DNA of 46,445 bases from Aquificaceae bacterium (GCA_027014155.1 JALWEG010000019.1:1-46445); one strand, 5' to 3'. Shown: positions 3 through 14,100, numbered from the stretch's first letter. Made by a program: numbers and translations. The notes: a model not told the origin generated them from the letters alone.

Positions 3-567
3 GTTGCAGTTATCCCTGGAAAGAAAGGGATTGCGACGAGGGGAAGAGTTATTTCTTAGTAGAGGGAGGAGGTTCCAAGTTGCAGTTATCCCTGGAAAGA
101 AAGGGATTGCGACAATTCCAAAAATTTGTCTCCTGCCCAGTCCTTTTTCACCTCAGGTTGCAGTTATCCCTGGAAAGAAAGGGATTGCGACTCCACGATG
201 CTATACCTACCCTTCATTTCTGCATACTCCACGTGTTGCAGTTATCCCTGGAAAGGAAGGGATTGCGACAAGTCCAGAAGGAAGATAGGTTCAGGGAAGG
301 TTTTAGCGAAGTTGCAGTTATCCCTGGAAAGAAAGGGATTGCGACTCCTTCCCTGCGGTGCTCCTTTGGAGCTTGACATACAAGTTGAAGTTATCCCTGC
401 AAAGAAAGGGATTGCGTCCGCTGGACTTTGACATAAAGTCCATAGATTGCCAGCTTGTTGATGTCATTCCTGCTAACTGAGGGATTAAGACAATCCTATC
501 GCCCGGAGAGTTTTTAGCCCTCGGGCAACCTCATTTGAGTTATCCCTGCGAAACAAGGGATTTGGCA
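3..567 (+). CRISPR. CRISPR array, leader-distal end, 8 repeats (last 3 degenerate)
   Basis: Eight 35-nt repeats start at 3, 79, 157, 235, 311, 384, 457 and 533, separated by spacers of 41, 43, 43, 41, 38, 38 and 41 nt. The repeat begins GTTGCAGTTATCCCTG and ends AAAGGGATTGCGAC. Its ATCCCT/AGGGAT arms form a 6-bp hairpin, leaving ATTGCGAC as a plausible 8-nt Cas6-type crRNA tag. Repeats 1-3 and 5 are identical and repeat 4 has one A-to-G change. Repeat 6 (384-418) has three changes, while repeats 7 (457-491) and 8 (533-567) are heavily diverged but keep the stem. Decay at the right end is typical of the leader-distal side, so the leader and any cas genes should lie left of the window; the + orientation follows from that. 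Small overlapping reading frames here are artefacts of the repeats. Confidence 0.95.
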
Positions 568-571
568 AATG
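423..571 (+). other. Structured tail of the CRISPR array (hairpins in degenerate spacers)
   Basis: The last two spacers each hold an inverted repeat. TGGACTTT/AAAGTCCA lies at 422-429/435-442 (8-bp stem, 5-nt loop), and GCCCG/CGGGC at 501-505/522-526, extended by an AG/CT pair. The last degenerate repeat is embedded in a longer imperfect hairpin with outer arms CATTTG (532-537) and CAAATG (566-571). The outer 3' arm is shared with the boundary of the downstream tandem module. This could be a decayed array tail, a terminator-like element, or a crRNA-like regulator of the next gene; only the base pairing is seen. Confidence 0.45.
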
Positions 572-778
572 TAGAATATGCCTCTGAACATGAGCAAAGG
601 CATTCCGCGGTATATTCGGAACCTTGAGGCCTTAGGCATAGATGTAAAAAGGCTCAGGAACAGCGAGAACGCAAGGTTTTACAAAAGAAAAGAGCTTGCT
701 CTGAGAGTAGGCGAAGAGGAGCTTGATGTTCTGGAAGTTATAGGCAGGACGCTCAGAGAAGGAAGGTGGAAGGAGAAG
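560..778 (+). repeat. Tandem module repeat, constant left end, copy 1
   Basis: This stretch recurs almost base for base at 1517-1735 (offset 957). It covers the putative promoter and the first ~67 codons of gene A. Its left border falls inside the last degenerate CRISPR repeat, at the shared sequence ATTTGGCAAATG. Confidence 0.9.
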
Positions 779-1186
779 GTAAAAACACGATTTCTGATTG
801 ATGACCTCATTGATACTTTCGGAGATTTCGGCAGCTTCCCAAAAGAGGTAAAAAGCTTACTGGAAGGTAAAGAAGAGATAGACAGCTTAACGCTTCACTT
901 TATAAAGAGGAAATACATAGACGGCTGGAACCTCAAGAGCCCTGAAGAACTTGACAAGATGTTCACAAAACACATCAAAGATGCAGAAGCTCTTGTGTAC
1001 AGACAGGGAGACAGGATAGCTCTTGAACTTGGAAGATACGTGGCCGTTATTCACCCACCGGATACAAAGATAACTATCTTTGAACTTGAGGAGCAATACG
1101 AAGACTACGGGGACTATGCAAGACAGACGGGAAAACCTATAATTAGACTATGGCAGTTAAGACATATTCTAAGCAGGCTCTTGTGA
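578..1186 (+). CDS. Module protein A (copy 1); unknown, possible BECR-fold nuclease-like C-terminal domain
   Basis: A 202-residue protein with no family I can name. Residues 1-67 are nearly identical to the second copy (1535-2149). Residues 68-103 differ, then LHFIKRKYIDGWN (106-118) is conserved, followed by a diverged C-terminal half ending in a KITIF strand. The order H-x2-KR, a helix, a VY strand, and a final [IT]-T-[IL]-F strand faintly recalls BECR-fold RNases (colicin D/E5, RelE, EndoU group); that is inference. The NSENARFYKRKEL segment has a weak MerR-like look. A TAGAAT box at 572-577 fits a leaderless start at ATG 590 rather than ATG 578. The 3' end overlaps gene B by 37 bp, suggesting translational coupling. 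Composition is more AT-rich than the housekeeping genes to the right. Confidence 0.75.
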   Translation: MPLNMSKGIPRYIRNLEALGIDVKRLRNSENARFYKRKELALRVGEEELDVLEVIGRTLREGRWKEKVKTRFLIDDLIDTFGDFGSFPKEVKSLLEGKEEIDSLTLHFIKRKYIDGWNLKSPEELDKMFTKHIKDAEALVYRQGDRIALELGRYVAVIHPPDTKITIFELEEQYEDYGDYARQTGKPIIRLWQLRHILSRLL

Positions 1187-1506
1187 AGAACTACCGCACG
1201 ATGGTTTTTGAGTTTGAGAATGTTCCCTTTGACCTTCAGAAGCAGAGAGAGCTTATATACGAGTATAGAGCTGATGAAGATGAAATTACCAAGTTTGCGG
1301 ACAGAGCACTCTTAAGAAGGCTTGCTTATTTCCTAAAAAACTCCCTCAGGTGGCACGGCTTTAAGATAGAGGACGACCCCAGCCAACCCCTTGAAAAGTG
1401 GTGGTGGCACCTAAATAAGATAGCCGAGGGGAAGTATCCCGTAGATAAACTACCCGAGCATTTAAGGGAGATATATAAGGATAAGTACTGCGCCACCACT
1501 CCATAA
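1150..1506 (+). CDS. Module protein B (copy 1); unknown, putative partner or immunity protein of A
   Basis: A 118-residue acidic protein. The last ~42 residues, containing EKWWWHLNKIAEGKYP and LPEHLREIYKDKY, are nearly identical to those of the second copy (2107-2472). The N-terminal two thirds are related only distantly (FEFENVPFDLQ against AEFEDIFFELQ). The start is uncertain: ATG 1150 overlaps the end of A by 37 bp and has no good Shine-Dalgarno; GTG 1183 or ATG 1201 are alternatives. The invariant tail with a variable head, placed directly after a protein with an invariant head and variable tail, suggests that the variable parts of A and B contact each other. Function is not known. Confidence 0.7.
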   Translation: MAVKTYSKQALVKNYRTMVFEFENVPFDLQKQRELIYEYRADEDEITKFADRALLRRLAYFLKNSLRWHGFKIEDDPSQPLEKWWWHLNKIAEGKYPVDKLPEHLREIYKDKYCATTP

Positions 1507-1514
1507 TCCGCTCA
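1383..1514 (+). repeat. Tandem module repeat, constant right end, copy 1
   Basis: This stretch matches 2349-2480 (offset 966) at about 90% by eye. It encodes the constant tail of protein B and continues ~8 bases past the stop into CCATAATCC-x-CTCA. In the second copy that same sequence is the 3' end of pyrB on the opposite strand. Copy 1 therefore carries a fossil of the pyrB terminus, showing that the module duplicated while sitting next to pyrB. Confidence 0.85.
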
Positions 1515-1516
1515 GA

Positions 1517-1735
1517 ATTTGGCAAATGTAGAATATGCCTCTGAACATGAGCAAAGGCATTCCGCGGTATATTCGGAACCTTGAAGCCTTAGGCGTAGAT
1601 GTAAAAAAGCTCAGGAACAGCGAGAACGCAAGGTTTTACAAAAGAAAAGAGCTTGCTCTGAGAATAGGCGAAGAAGAGCTTGATGTTCTGGAAGTTATAG
1701 GAAAGACGGTTAGAGAAGGAAGGTGGAAGGAGAAG
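1517..1735 (+). repeat. Tandem module repeat, constant left end, copy 2
   Basis: Near-identical copy of 560-778, including the TAGAAT box and the ATG-rich start region. It sits directly after the copy-1 right end, so the two modules are head to tail with essentially no spacer. Confidence 0.9.
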
Positions 1736-2149
1736 ATAAGCTCCAAAGCTTTGGAAAAGGAGATTAAAAGGCTCAGGTATAGGTTTGGAACGAACCTGCC
1801 CCGAGAAGTTCAAGAGTTTTTAGAAAATCCGAAGGATAACCTTATGTTGCACTATATCAAGAGGAAGTATATAGACGGCTGGAATATAAAAAGTCCCTCA
1901 GAGCTTGACTTGATGTTTACACGCACGCTTAAAGGTAGGTATTCAAAAATCTTGAAGCAGGTCGGTGGAAGGCTGATAGTTGCTTCAGAAGAACACCTGG
2001 CAGTAGTGGAGGCTCCGAATAAAAGGATTACCTTGTTCTCCTGGAAAGCGAAGTACGCATCTTACGAGGAGTGGTATAAGGAAATAGAAGTGCGTATATT
2101 AAAGACATGGGACATGGAGGAGCTGTTAAAGAAGCTGCAGAGCTTTTAA
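1535..2149 (+). CDS. Module protein A' (copy 2); unknown, paralogue of 578-1186
   Basis: A 204-residue paralogue of the first A protein. Residues 1-67 differ at only a handful of positions. The middle is replaced by a lysine/arginine-rich helix, and LHYIKRKYIDGWN is retained at about 109-121. The C-terminal half is diverged but keeps the strand order, ending in RITLF. As in copy 1, a TAGAAT box (1529-1534) lies 12 nt before the internal ATG 1547, so a leaderless start there is possible. It overlaps B' by 43 bp. Confidence 0.75.
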   Translation: MPLNMSKGIPRYIRNLEALGVDVKKLRNSENARFYKRKELALRIGEEELDVLEVIGKTVREGRWKEKISSKALEKEIKRLRYRFGTNLPREVQEFLENPKDNLMLHYIKRKYIDGWNIKSPSELDLMFTRTLKGRYSKILKQVGGRLIVASEEHLAVVEAPNKRITLFSWKAKYASYEEWYKEIEVRILKTWDMEELLKKLQSF

Positions 2150-2472
2150 TAAATAGATGGGGAGCGGCGGTAGCTGAATTTGAAGATATATTCTTTGAGC
2201 TTCAAGGTATTAGAGAAGAAATTGATAGAGCCGGTCTTAACGATGCTCAGGAGATAAAGTTTTACGACAAGCTCTTCTTTGAAGACATACCGTACTACAT
2301 GGACATCGCCAAGAGAGTATATGGCCTTAGCCTGCAGGACGACGATGGCCAACCCCTTGAAAAATGGTGGTGGCACCTAAATAAGATAGCCGAGGGAAAG
2401 TATCCCGCAGATAAACTGCCCGAGCATCTGAGGGAGATATATAAGGATAAATACTGCGCCGCTACTCCATAA
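2107..2472 (+). CDS. Module protein B' (copy 2); unknown, paralogue of 1150-1506
   Basis: A 121-residue paralogue of B, with a near-identical C-terminal tail (EKWWWHLNKIAEGKYP) and a strongly diverged N-terminal part. ATG 2107 lies 43 bp inside A' and no Shine-Dalgarno stands out, so the true start may be further in. The 3' end overlaps the end of pyrB on the other strand by 11 bp. Function is unknown; see the entry for B. Confidence 0.7.
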   Translation: MGHGGAVKEAAELLINRWGAAVAEFEDIFFELQGIREEIDRAGLNDAQEIKFYDKLFFEDIPYYMDIAKRVYGLSLQDDDGQPLEKWWWHLNKIAEGKYPADKLPEHLREIYKDKYCAATP

Positions 2473-2480
2473 TCCACTCA
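2349..2480 (+). repeat. Tandem module repeat, constant right end, copy 2
   Basis: Matches 1383-1514. In this copy the terminal ~19 bases are also the last codons and stop of pyrB on the minus strand. Confidence 0.85.
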
Positions 2481-5734: not shown

Positions 5735-5738
5735 AATT

Positions 5739-5898
5739 CCGCCTGCCCTGTTCGTGGTTTGGAGATTGTAATTGGGGCCTACAAGTGGGCTGAAAGGGAA
5801 CCCGGCTTCGGCGGGGCTCTGAGAGGGCTCTCCGAGAGGGTACCCACCTAAAATTCAGAGGCCCACCTACATCTCTTAAATCACGGCAGGGCGGGCTA
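5739..5898 (+). ncRNA. ssrS: 6S RNA
   Basis: A ~160-nt RNA that mimics an open promoter and sequesters housekeeping RNA polymerase holoenzyme. The terminal stem is GCCTGCCCTG (5741-5750) with CAGGGCGGGC (5887-5896). Inner stems are GTG...GGAGAT with ATCTC...CAC, and GTGGGC...CTGAA (5785-5793) with TTCAG...GCCCAC (5854-5866). Between them is a large central region and an apical part with a CGGCTTCGGCG hairpin. Position directly upstream of the 5-formyltetrahydrofolate cyclo-ligase gene is the classical 6S neighbourhood, and a 6S homologue is known from Aquifex. Ends are set by the closing stem. It lies within 5 nt of the pheT stop and may be processed from a pheT transcript. Confidence 0.9.
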
Positions 5899-5912
5899 AA
5901 GACTTGCCTTCC

Positions 5913-5937: not shown

Positions 5938-6510
5938 TTGGTATTAAGCAAAAAAGAGCTTAGGACAAAATTAAGAAAGAAGAGAAACTCCCTTGAAAGG
6001 GATAGGGTGCAGGAGCTATCCCAACCCATAAGAGAGAGGCTTCTGCACCTGTCCCATAACTTCCACCGGATCATGCTCTTCTATCCCACCGACGGAGAGC
6101 CTGACGTAAGACCCCTGTTTGACGAGCTCATATCCTCCGGTAAGGAGCTGTTCCTACCTAAGGTTGTAGGCGAGCGGATTCAGGCTTGCCGTGTTGAAAA
6201 CCCCTCGTGGCTGTCGGGGGGTAGGTTCGGCATACCTGAGCCCGAACCCTGCGTTCCTTCCCAACCGAAGGATATAGATATGGTGGCAGTTCCGGGAGTT
6301 GCCTTTGATAGGGAAGGCTACAGGCTCGGTTTCGGCAAAGGGTACTACGACAGGTTCTTATCCCAAACGGAGGCTCTGAAGGTGGGAGTCCTCTACTCCT
6401 TTCAGCTGGTAGATTTCGTCCCGAGGGAGCCGTGGGACGTTCCCATGGATATCCTCATAACGGAGCGTGAGACCATACACACACAAGGAGGTAAGTCATG
6501 GAAGTTTTAA
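5938..6510 (+). CDS. fthC: 5-formyltetrahydrofolate cyclo-ligase
   Basis: A 190-residue cytoplasmic enzyme that uses ATP to convert 5-formyl-THF to 5,10-methenyl-THF. Seen: N-terminal basic helix (KKELRTKLRKKRN), FYPTDGEPDVRPLFDE, and the C-terminal signature VAVPGVAFDREGYRLGFGKG followed by YYDRFL, which carries the nucleotide-binding glycines. TTG 5938 is chosen because AGGAGG lies 9 nt upstream and no better ATG is nearby. Placement after 6S RNA matches the ssrS-ygfA linkage known in many bacteria. The 3' end overlaps rny by 13 bp, and the rny Shine-Dalgarno lies inside this gene. Confidence 0.93.
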   Translation: MVLSKKELRTKLRKKRNSLERDRVQELSQPIRERLLHLSHNFHRIMLFYPTDGEPDVRPLFDELISSGKELFLPKVVGERIQACRVENPSWLSGGRFGIPEPEPCVPSQPKDIDMVAVPGVAFDREGYRLGFGKGYYDRFLSQTEALKVGVLYSFQLVDFVPREPWDVPMDILITERETIHTQGGKSWKF

Positions 6511-8183
6511 TAGCCGTCAGTGCGGTAGTGGGAATAATCATCGGAGGCCTGGTGAGTTTCTTGGTTTTAAAAGGTAAGAAGCCTGAGCCGGAAGTTAAGG
6601 TAGTGGAAAAGGTAGTGGAGAGGGGCATACCTCAAGAGGAGATAGACAGGATAAAGGAGGAGGCCAGACAGGAGGCGAGAGTTATCTTAGAGCAGGCTCG
6701 CAAAGAGGCGGAGGAGATTCGCCAGCGTGTCAGGAAGGAGTACGAGGAGAAGTACGAGAGGGAGCTGGAGAGGCTCAGGGGAGAGTTTGAGGACAGAAAG
6801 AGGGAGATAGAGGAGAAGAGAAGAGAGCTAAAGGAGCTGGAGAGCGGTCTTCTGCAAAAGGAGAGGCAGCTGGATAGAAAGTGGGAGGTCTTTGAGAGAC
6901 GGGAGGAGGAAATCTACAAGAGGGAGAAGGAGGTAAGGGAGTTAGAGAGGCAGGTGGAGCTTAAAGAGATGGAGATCCTTGATAGGGAGAAGAGGCTTAA
7001 GGAGCAGGAAGAGGAGATACAGAAGCTAAAAGAAAAGGAGCTCTTAGAGCTTCAGAGGATAGCTTCCTTGACCATGGAGGAGGCCAGAGAGGAAATCCTG
7101 AGAAAGGTGGAGGAGGAGACCAGACTGGAAGCCATAAAGCTCATGAAGAGCATAGAAGAGGAGGCCATGAAGAAGGCGGACAGAGAGGCCAAGAGGATTA
7201 TCCTTACCTCGGTGCAGCGCCTCTCTCCCCAGATAGCCATAAACTACACCACCACCACGGTGGAACTGCCGAGCAACGAGTTCAAGGGCAGGATAATAGG
7301 AAGGGAAGGCAGAAATATAAGAACCTTTGAGCTTTTAACGGGAGTTGACCTCATAATAGACGACACCCCCGACGTGGTGACCCTATCCTCCTTTGACCCC
7401 ATGCGTCGTGAGATAGCCAAGGAGGCGTTGGAGAGGCTGATTCAAGACGGAAGGATACACCCGGCGAGGATAGAGGAGGTGGTTGACGAGGTTAAGAAGG
7501 ACTTGGACGATAAGATACGCAAGATGGGCGAGGAGGTCGCCTTTGAGCTGGAGCTTCACGATATAGACCCCAGGCTCTACTACTACATAGGCAAGCTCTA
7601 CTTCAGAACCAGCTACTCGCAGAACGTTCTGCTCCACTCCAAAGAGGTGGCTCACATAGCCGGCCTCATGGCGGAGGAACTCGGGCTTGATGCGAAGCTG
7701 GCGCGCAGAGCCGGACTTCTCCACGACATAGGTAAGGCCATATCCCACGAGGTAGGCGGCTCACATACAGACATAGGCGTGGAGCTGTGCAGGAGATACG
7801 GAGAGCCTGACGCCGTGATAAATGCGATAAAGGCTCACCACGAAGAGGAACCCGTAAGGTATCCCGAGGTGGCCTTGGTGTGTGCGGCGGACGCTCTGTC
7901 GGCCGCAAGGCCGGGAGCCAGAAGGGAGACCCTTGAGGCTTACCTAAAGAGACTTGAGAAGATAGAGCAGATAGTTAAGTCCTTTGAAGGTGTGGCCAAC
8001 GCCTACGCCGTTCAGGCGGGAAGAGAGGTAAGGATAATAGTCAACCCGGACCAGGTTAGCGACGAGGATGCCTACGTGCTTTCCAAGGAGATAGCCAAGA
8101 AGATAGAGGAAGAGATGGAGTATCCCGGACAGATAAAGGTGGTGGTTATAAGGGAGTTAAGGAGCGTTGAGTATGCGAAGTGA
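6498..8183 (+). CDS. rny: Ribonuclease Y
   Basis: A 561-residue membrane-anchored endoribonuclease that initiates mRNA decay. Seen: one N-terminal membrane segment (~2-24), a long charged coiled coil (~40-230), a KH RNA-binding domain (~258-320; GRIIGREGRNIRTFE) and an HD hydrolase domain (~370-470; HSKEVAHIAG, LLHDIGKA, AHHEEE), then the conserved C-terminal domain ending VIRELRSVEYAK. Length and order are standard. ATG 6498 follows GGAGG by 6 nt. It is probably co-transcribed with fthC through the overlap. Confidence 0.96.
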   Translation: MEVLIAVSAVVGIIIGGLVSFLVLKGKKPEPEVKVVEKVVERGIPQEEIDRIKEEARQEARVILEQARKEAEEIRQRVRKEYEEKYERELERLRGEFEDRKREIEEKRRELKELESGLLQKERQLDRKWEVFERREEEIYKREKEVRELERQVELKEMEILDREKRLKEQEEEIQKLKEKELLELQRIASLTMEEAREEILRKVEEETRLEAIKLMKSIEEEAMKKADREAKRIILTSVQRLSPQIAINYTTTTVELPSNEFKGRIIGREGRNIRTFELLTGVDLIIDDTPDVVTLSSFDPMRREIAKEALERLIQDGRIHPARIEEVVDEVKKDLDDKIRKMGEEVAFELELHDIDPRLYYYIGKLYFRTSYSQNVLLHSKEVAHIAGLMAEELGLDAKLARRAGLLHDIGKAISHEVGGSHTDIGVELCRRYGEPDAVINAIKAHHEEEPVRYPEVALVCAADALSAARPGARRETLEAYLKRLEKIEQIVKSFEGVANAYAVQAGREVRIIVNPDQVSDEDAYVLSKEIAKKIEEEMEYPGQIKVVVIRELRSVEYAK

Positions 8184-11186: not shown

Positions 11187-14100
11187 ATGTTCAGGGCGAT
11201 ACTGAAGTTTAGAATCTTGGTTCTGATAGCCCTCGTGGGCACCATAATATACGGAGCCTACAGCTTTAAGAAGCTCCAGATAGACGCGTTCCCAGACCCG
11301 ACACCCGTTCAGGTGAACATATACACGGAGGCTCCCGGACTCTCCGCCGAGGAGGTGGAGATCCTCATAACCATACCCGTTGAGTCGGTGATGAACGGAC
11401 TCAAAGACGTCATACTCGTGCGTAGCGTCTCTCTGCCGGCTCTCTCTTACGTTTCCGTCTATTTCAAGGACGGGACGGACATCTACTTCGCCAGAAGGCT
11501 GGTTATGGAAAAGCTCCCTGACGCAAGGGAGAAGGTTCCAGAGGGCTTTAACCCCGTCATGGGTCCCAACGCCACGGGTCTCGGAAACGCCCTTCTGTAC
11601 GTGATACACGACGAGAAGGGCAGATACACCAACGCCGAGCTAAAGTCCATATTCCAGCAGTGGGTCGCCCGTCCCCTGATAATGAGCGTGGGCGGTGTGG
11701 AGGAGATAGTCCAGTTCGGTCCCGAGCTCGCCTACGTGATAGTCCCCAACCCTGACAAGTTCTTAGCATACGGAATAACCCTTGAGGAGCTCTTAGAAGC
11801 CCTTGAGAGGAACAACCTTCTGGTAGGAGGAGGTTTTTTCCAGTCCGCGGAGGGAGACCTCGTGGTCAGAGGCTTGGGAAGGGTGTATTCGGAGGAAGAC
11901 CTGCTGAGAATCCCCATAAAGGTGGACGAAGAGAAGGGTGTCAGCGTATATCTCAGAGACGTGGCAAGAGTGGTAAAGGGTGAGGTGCCCAACAGAAGAG
12001 GCGCTTTCACCATGAACGGGAAAGAGGTTCAAGGAAACATAGTGGTAAAGAGGATATACGAGAACACCAAGGAGGTGGTGGACAAGGTAAAGAACAAACT
12101 AAAGGAGATACAGAAGATACTCCCCGAGGGTGTGAAGATAGAACACCTCTACGACCAAGCCTACCTGACCGAGAAGGCGGTATCCACCATACAGAAGGCT
12201 CTTTTCAGCGGTATGCTCCTGGTCGCCTTCGTGACAGCCTTTTTGATGGGCAACTTCAGAGCGTCGCTGATAGTCATATCTTCCCTGCCCCTCACACTCC
12301 TTATAGCCTTCATAGTTATGAAAGAAACGGGCATGAGCGGGAACCTCATGACCCTCGGAGGTCTCGCCATAGGTATCGGAATGTTCGTGGACTCCTCGGT
12401 GGTCATAGTGGAGAACATCTACAGACACCTGACGGAGAAAAAGGGTGGACTCAAGTTCTCGGTGGTCTTGGACTCGGTCAAGGAGGTTTGGAGACCCGTT
12501 CTCTTTGCGGTTCTCATAATCGTGATAGTCTTCTCCCCCATATTCGTCTTTGAGTCTATAGAAGGCAAATACTTCAAACCTCTCGCATTGACGCTGATAA
12601 TAGCGCTTTTGGGTTCACTTCTTATAGCCTTCACCTTCATACCGGTTCTGAGCTACTACTTCCTCAGCCCCGGCAAGGAGACCTACAGCAAGTTAATGAG
12701 CAAGATACACAGCGTTTACGACAGAGTCCTTGATGCCACCTTCAAGGTCAGGATTCCCCTCTTCTTGGGTGTTTTCGTCTCCTTTATCCTGAGCCTCTTT
12801 CTGCTCACACGCATAGGGACGGAGTTTGCTCCAGAGCTGGAGGAAGGTGCGGTGATAGTGAAGGCTTTCATGGACCCCAACGTCTCTCTGGAGGAGGGCA
12901 AGAGGGTTGCCATGGCGATGGAGAAGGAAGCTCTAAAGTTCCCCGAGGTCATAAGGACTTACTCCACCATAGGAAGAGCGGAGAAGGGCGAAGCTGCGGA
13001 CGTTAACTACATAGAGACCTGGATAATCCTAAAGCCCCAGAGCGAGTGGGAGAGCTTCAAAACAAGAGAGGAGTTCAACCAGATACTCAGAGAGCGCCTT
13101 GAGTGGCTACCAGCTTCCATAGGCTTCACCCAGCCAATAAAGATGAGGATAGACGAGCTTCTCTCGGGCGTCAGAGCGGACATAGCCATAAAGATATTCG
13201 GTCAGGACCCGGAGCTTCTTAACCAGCTGGCGGACAGGGTCAAGGAGATAGCCGAAGGCGTTCCCGGAGCGGTGGATGTCCAGAAGGAGATACAGGCGGG
13301 AAGGCTTCAGCTAAGGGTCTATCCCAAGTGGGAGACCTTGGAGAGGTACGGAATAACCGTTGAGGAAGTCCTTAATGTCATTAAATACGCCCTCGGCGGA
13401 GCCCAGATGGGCGTCCTACAACAAGATACCTTCCTCTTCCCCATAGTCATGACCCTGCCCGATGAGTTCAGAGGAGAGATAAGCAGGCTGCGGAGCATTC
13501 CCCTCTTTGAAAGGGACGGCAAACTACTGACCTTCGGCGATGTGGCGGAGATAAAGGTGGAACCCGGACTCTTCGTGATAAGGAGAGAGAACAACATAAG
13601 GTTCGCTCTCGTGATGCTGAACGTGGAAGGAAGGGATATAGGAAGCTTTGTGGAGGAGCTTAGGAGTAGGGTGGAGAGGGAGATAAAGATGCCCAAGGGA
13701 TACTTCATAACCTACGGAGGTCAGTTTGAGAATCAACAGAGAGCTATGAAGAGGCTCTCGGTGGCGGTTCCAGTGTCCATATTCCTCATTTTCATAATGC
13801 TCTATCTGAACTTCAACTCCATAAGGGACGCCCTCGTGGTGATGCTGAACGTCCCCTTTGCGGTGATAGGTGGGATTATCGCCCTATACATCTCGGGCTT
13901 TAACCTCTCCGTGCCTTCAGCCATAGGCTTTATAGCCATATTCGGTATAGCTACCCTCAACGGCGTGGTGCTTGTGACCTACATAAGACAGCTCCTTGAA
14001 GAGGGACTTGACATAAGGGAAGCGGTTAAAAGAGCCTCAATCCTCAGGATAAGACCAATTCTGATAACCGCCATAACTACCTTCATGGGACTTATACCTC

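Follow-up and report, generated by a model that had tools for sequence, protein, structure and literature searches.

Tandem gene modules beside a CRISPR array of an Aquificaceae bacterium: probable orphan MuF toxin-immunity cassettes of phage origin

What are the two gene pairs that stand head to tail behind a CRISPR array in an Aquificaceae genome, with nearly identical ends and strongly diverged middles? The window, i.e., the whole stretch of 46,445 nucleotides (nt) analyzed here (GCA_027014155.1, JALWEG010000019.1:1-46445), opens with the end of an array of clustered regularly interspaced short palindromic repeats (CRISPR), followed by two modules, each consisting of a gene A and a small gene B. 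An initial annotation had proposed that the diverged cores hold a toxin domain and the matching face of its immunity protein, exchanged as cassettes between constant ends. In our best reading, which we consider very probable, the modules are orphan MuF toxin-immunity cassettes: the left end is leftover linker of a phage MuF head protein, the core is a toxin domain together with the matching immunity face, and the right end is the conserved C terminus of B. A descends from phage MuF genes, and the cores show a mosaic pattern of exchange as toxin-immunity units.

Constant ends and a variable core

The two modules lie on the plus strand. An independent repeat search recovered direct repeats at the left ends (560-782 and 1517-1739, 96% identity) and at the right ends (1357-1514 and 2323-2480, 87%), and a comparison of module 1 with module 2 in 60-nt sliding windows along their alignment agreed with it. 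DNA identity is 0.95-1.00 over the left end (560-739), 0.42-0.75 over the core (740-1378; mostly 0.42-0.58, with patches at 0.72-0.75) and 0.88-0.94 over the right end (1379-1514). This pattern of repeats and cores lies far beyond chance, and the near-identical ends and diverged cores of the initial annotation were thus found again. One of the core patches (911-970, identity 0.72) corresponds to a conserved HxxKRKY..DGWN motif.

The variable cores (779-1382 and 1736-2348) span the junction between the two genes, as had been noted; they begin near residue 67 of A and end near residue 76 of B, so that copy 1 holds the putative toxin domain of A1 and the N-terminal part of B1. The open reading frames (ORFs) of A1 (578-1186, 202 residues) and B1 (1150-1506, 118 residues) overlap by 37 nt, and those of A2 (1535-2149, 204 residues) and B2 (2107-2472, 121 residues) by 43 nt. 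By homology and predicted fold, A1 is an orphan MuF C-terminal fragment in which residues 1-66 are linker, encoded by the left constant end, and residues ~67-202 form a predicted BECR-fold RNase toxin core; A2, by comparison with A1, is a second such fragment. B1 is a predicted all-helical immunity protein and B2 a second putative one, and the right constant end encodes the C-terminal part of B (QPLEKWWWHLNKIAEGKYP..LPEHLREIYKDKY in copy 1). At the protein level, A1 and A2 are 55% identical overall and ~36% identical in the core, and B1 and B2 are ~51% identical.

The two ends also differ in age. Synonymous divergence (dS) between A1 and A2 is 0.10 in the constant part, the C-terminal part of B has a dS of 0.43, and the core is saturated. 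The left ends are therefore younger than the right ends, and one recent duplication event does not account for the two. A mobile element with defined ends was considered and dropped: blastn homology between copies is largely confined to the genes, and no inverted repeats were found within the first 4 kb of the window.

Phage origin and predicted fold of A

The origin of A became apparent from homologs gathered from 64 Aquificaceae genomes and from phage loci found via a profile of B. One contig (L027; contig C39 of G016) encodes a Mu Gp27-like small terminase, a large terminase and a portal protein, followed by a 464-residue protein that is ended by the contig edge. This protein matches the PHROG head morphogenesis category (E = 2e-30), with a PF04233 match below cut-off, and its residues 336-464 align with residues 1-130 of the A profile (hhalign, E = 2.4e-51). 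On two IMG/VR viral contigs (L081 and L082), a portal gene is followed by a gene for a MuF protein of 536 or 526 residues, whose C terminus is homologous to A (E = 1.2e-35 and 3.3e-32, respectively), and then by a B homolog. The MuF-type gene stands directly after the portal gene in these three loci and in L084. Residues 1-66 of A align with the post-MuF linker of intact MuF proteins. Hence, the constant N-terminal part of A represents the linker that comes after the MuF domain in these proteins, and its variable core represents their C-terminal domain. Two orphan copies (L028 and L029) retain the stretch VPRRxPHPHCLCYLIPV upstream, which also closes the MuF region in L027.

A genome-wide scan with A gave matches confined to Aquificota records. 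Searches of A2 and of one prophage B against phage records (tblastn) returned no match, and single-sequence and first A-profile scans of viral contigs yielded no confirmed relative. Neither A nor B matched a PDB sequence, and hits to an A2M or PH domain (E = 0.07-0.23) were dropped as noise. Two weak homologs of A with open frames of ~170 residues (L146 and L147; G112 and G113) occur in another family of the class (E ~1e-6).

The predicted structure of A points to an RNase. An AlphaFold2 (AF2) model of A1 (mean predicted local distance difference test score, pLDDT, of 90; predicted template modeling score, pTM, of 0.84) places helices at residues 103-114 and 122-134 and strands at 139-143, 146-151, 154-159, 164-169 and 190-193 of the core, i.e., a pair of helices followed by a meander of four strands and a short fifth strand. 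The BECR fold has been described as an N-terminal helical segment followed by a four-stranded meander, often with a short fifth strand (Zhang et al., 2012; PMC3482391), and the predicted topology of A agrees with this description. The three best PDB fold matches of A are chains of CdiA-CT NC101 (5I4Q/5I4R; E = 0.17-0.22, probability 0.72-0.77), a BECR tRNA-cleaving toxin (PMC9086364) whose immunity protein is, like the B model, all-helical. A shares no sequence match with the BECR-fold RNase toxins (CdiA-CT NC101 and the PBECR families), and the fold score is weak; Foldseek of A against viral models gave no usable match. In a profile comparison, the A core matched other MuF C-terminal domains (hhalign, E = 9.5e-5, probability 59), and one such domain, from L083, weakly resembles PBECR3 (E = 2.2e-4, below the curated cut-off). 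Within the core, all of 11 sequences share H107, K110, R111 and K112, and R146 is nearly invariant, which makes these five residues candidates for catalysis. The hint of a BECR-fold RNase in the initial annotation thus gained ground: on the model, the weak PDB match and these profile links, A is likely, but not proven, to be such an enzyme, and it is plausibly a tRNase.

The B family, core exchange and the orphan state

B lies at the position expected of an immunity gene. In the MuF polymorphic toxins of temperate phages (Jamet et al., 2017; PMC5576092), the gene after the portal gene carries a variable C-terminal extension and is followed by a small putative immunity ORF. B1 and B2 are likewise small ORFs directly downstream of, and overlapping, A1 and A2, and the same order is found in the phage homologs. 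By this analogy, the position, size and overlap of B fit an immunity gene. In other prophages and phages, B homologs also follow MuF genes whose C-terminal domains differ from A (L079, L080, L083-L087 and L076, the last with its MuF gene partly seen). An alignment of 34 B sequences reveals a near-invariant block (P..KWWWHL..I..G.YP...LPEHLR) within the C-terminal part and a variable N-terminal part. B is confidently predicted to be all-helical (pLDDT 92) and gave no PDB fold match in Foldseek. A phage protein of unknown function, phrog_9741, matches the C-terminal parts of B1 and B2 (E = 6.4e-6 and 2.1e-5); the likeness lies in the conserved C-terminal part of B and extends over ~32 residues only, leaving the N-terminal part uncovered.

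A structural reading would make the MuF C-terminal part an extension that serves the head or DNA ejection, and B its chaperone or capsid partner. MuF proteins are indeed head proteins, and B occupies the same post-MuF place in the phages seen. We nevertheless regard this explanation as improbable, because a variable domain faces a variable partner surface, differing C-terminal domains share the same B family, one of these domains is PBECR3-like and the fold of A BECR-like, and B occurs alone in chromosomes that have no MuF genes.

Covariation suggests that A and B are matched to each other. In Mantel tests on eight cellular modules, a small sample in which several modules are partial, distances between A cores correlated with those between B N-terminal parts (r = 0.89, p = 0.0003), and distances between A constant parts correlated with those between B C-terminal parts (r = 0.71, p = 0.019), whereas constant parts and cores were uncorrelated (r = -0.01 for A and -0.21 for B). 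Cores thus covary with cores and ends with ends, as predicted if a toxin and its matching immunity face are exchanged as a cassette between fixed ends. Together with the MuF-A-B order of the phage homologs, this supports the cassette exchange proposed in the initial annotation. Whether A and B also occur apart and vary independently has a divided answer: B is often found without A, but A and B covary where both occur.

We propose that the cassettes derive from the severed 3' end of a phage MuF gene. The MuF head protein of the phage bears the A linker and core as its C terminus, and the following small gene, B, would make the immunity protein. B would bind and block A through its variable N-terminal part, with the conserved C-terminal part as a scaffold. 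Each core would pass from locus to locus in one piece, through recombination in the linker and in the C terminus of B, both of which are constant. Orphan B genes in chromosomes may then be kept as an immunity bank against phages with MuF toxins, with A surviving in some copies but lost from most of those in the window's genus. Toxicity, RNase activity, neutralization and protection are inferred parts of this scheme.

The distribution of the two genes illustrates the orphan state. Six of the 64 genomes have A and 33 have B, and the other A or B copies are scattered across unrelated loci. In the window's genus, A is intact in the window only, while B is intact in nearly all copies; A1 and A2 have fully open frames with the conserved motif intact. 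For orphan B genes without an intact A, pairwise ratios of nonsynonymous to synonymous substitution rates (dN/dS) are mostly 0.07-0.17 and reach 0.28. B is therefore maintained for its protein under purifying selection. The A core has a dN/dS of ~0.2-0.3.

Where the orphans lie suggests how they arrived. Usual attachment sites of phages are tRNA genes, and about 6 of 14 orphan loci are within ~400 bases of one; in L028, an orphan cassette (6189-7589) sits between tRNA-Leu and tRNA-Ser, with a MuF remnant that starts ~30 bases past tRNA-Leu. This proximity fits an origin from integrated phages. It would also suit plain phage debris, i.e., decayed prophage remnants in which A has no present function and B alone, or nothing, is selected, and the truncated A copies and the lack of a MuF carrier in the genome point the same way. 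Debris is a possibility that we take seriously while thinking it doubtful, given that both window copies of A are open with the motif intact, that purifying selection on B is strong, and that two modules in tandem whose cores have been exchanged do not look like plain decay.

Several points weigh against our reading of the modules as MuF toxin-immunity cassettes. First, A and B have no Pfam or NCBIfam match. Second, the MuF domain in L027, L081 and L082 scores under the Pfam cut-off, so that its assignment depends on PHROG head morphogenesis matches (L027) and on the position after the portal gene. Third, the fold matches of A are weak, none having E < 0.001, and the Mantel sample is small. 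Fourth, A1 has no evident ribosome-binding site, and a scan limited to sigma-70-type sites found no plus-strand promoter-like site in the module region. Taken together, these last two observations mean that A may not be made.

The start signals also bear on a further alternative, that A and B form a self-standing toxin-antitoxin (addiction) module, co-expressed from the chromosome, in which the antitoxin B prevents loss of the module. The overlap of the genes, the dispersal of copies over unrelated loci in several genomes, the open frames of A1 and A2 and the dN/dS of the A core would all agree with it. We think it unlikely: most copies in the genus have lost A and kept B, the reverse of what addiction predicts; the scan and the missing ribosome-binding site leave A without evident start signals; and the constant part of A is a MuF linker, not a DNA-binding or regulatory domain.

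Reading the modules as orphan MuF cassettes brings them close to two known systems. The phage homologs of A share with MuF polymorphic toxins the post-portal place, the variable C terminus and the small downstream ORF. The window copies differ from these toxins: they are chromosomal, no phage genes accompany them, no portal gene stands directly upstream of A, and their toxin and immunity families have no Pfam or NCBIfam entry. A1 and A2 lack a MuF domain, and no PF04233 match was found in the window's genome (99.9% complete); for want of this domain the window copies are not MuF toxins in the strict sense. A second parallel is to orphan cdiA-CT/cdiI and rhs-CT/rhsI pairs, in which CdiA/Rhs toxin fragments lack start signals and the immunity genes are functional (Poole et al., 2011; PMC3150448). 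Both have a carrier-less toxin C terminus apparently without start signals, a 5' leftover of pre-toxin sequence, an own immunity gene and a tandem arrangement. Here, however, the carrier is a phage head protein and not CdiA or Rhs, no full-length carrier lies nearby, the constant region includes the end of the immunity gene, and the cassettes are dispersed over the genome.

The initial annotation had suspected an undescribed pair of no known family. This stands for the families themselves, but the source is a known class, the MuF polymorphic toxins. Three things appear to be new: these families of toxin and immunity protein, the occurrence of MuF cassettes as orphans, and the junctions with CRISPR arrays described below. 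The modules enlarge the MuF class by toxin and immunity families from thermophilic bacteria and, as orphan MuF cassettes in a chromosome, bear a clear mark of the joint exchange of toxin and immunity face between fixed ends. Two questions thereby become testable: whether the C-terminal toxins of MuF proteins are active inside infected cells, and whether orphan immunity genes are retained by hosts because they protect against such phages.

The B family also offers a case of an immunity-like gene that has settled beside a housekeeping locus, apparently with a new role. In about two dozen genomes from four genera (L070, L071, L072 at 13459-13833, L074, L075, L077, L078 and L093-L115), a longer B homolog (~140 residues) immediately precedes pheA, the gene for chorismate mutase/prephenate dehydratase. 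Elsewhere in L072, two B homologs stand in tandem (6841-7554), and no toxin gene was seen upstream of them. A protein of ~487 residues from another family of the order (L139 2703-4169 and L140 1080-2540) contains a B-like profile match (E ~1e-17).

CRISPR junctions and spacers

The window array (1-567) stops exactly at the start of module 1. Its 35-nt repeat (GTTGCAGTTATCCCTGGAAAGAAAGGGATTGCGAC, plus strand) decays toward the module at this trailer end, and the last degenerate copy (~533-567) overlaps the left constant end. CRISPR repeats of two types directly abut A or A fragments at three sites of the window's genus (L004 9994-10533, L066 6994-7424 and window 533-578). In the C3 array, which type I-B-like cas genes adjoin by ORF reading, a perfect last repeat is followed within two bases by A coding sequence (SPAELDERF) and then by an intact B. 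On contig C93 of G063, the tail of A and an intact B come immediately after a lone repeat of the other type. At the trailers of four arrays from other genera, no A/B sequence was found.

Two spacers match A itself. The oldest spacer of the C42 array (G000, L231 ~833-869), flanked by the last good repeat and a degenerate copy, reads LVRSGGWDKFT and agrees with the A sequence of L028 in 30 of 37 bases. A C3 spacer that is present twice (G000, L004 9595-9630 and 9661-9696) codes on the reverse strand for YVQDLEALGVN, where the constant part of A has YIKDLEALGVD. Both score above every shuffled control. These matches imply that the host lineage probably met A as foreign DNA.

Could A and B then be accessory genes of the CRISPR system? 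Several arrays of the genus, namely those of the window, C3 and G063 C93, do end at A/B. We hold this to be extremely improbable and dropped it: the CRISPR link is limited to the window's genus, no CRISPR lies near the homologs from phages and other genera, and the spacers mark A as a target rather than a helper. The same three junctions and the two A-matching spacers are the basis of another idea, that CRISPR arrays of the genus captured phage immunity genes, spacers taken from the MuF toxin gene having recombined with, or been repaired onto, the targeted locus. The trailer end of the array would then lead directly into the toxin gene and an intact B, and B may be read from the CRISPR leader. 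We offer this capture as a speculative idea, and rather an improbable one.

Another spacer of the C3 array also occurs twice in a row (L004 9327-9461). Further along the window, a 6S RNA gene (RF00013) at 5737-5901 is flanked by a pheT-like gene and a gene resembling that for 5-formyltetrahydrofolate cyclo-ligase, both named from ORF reading.

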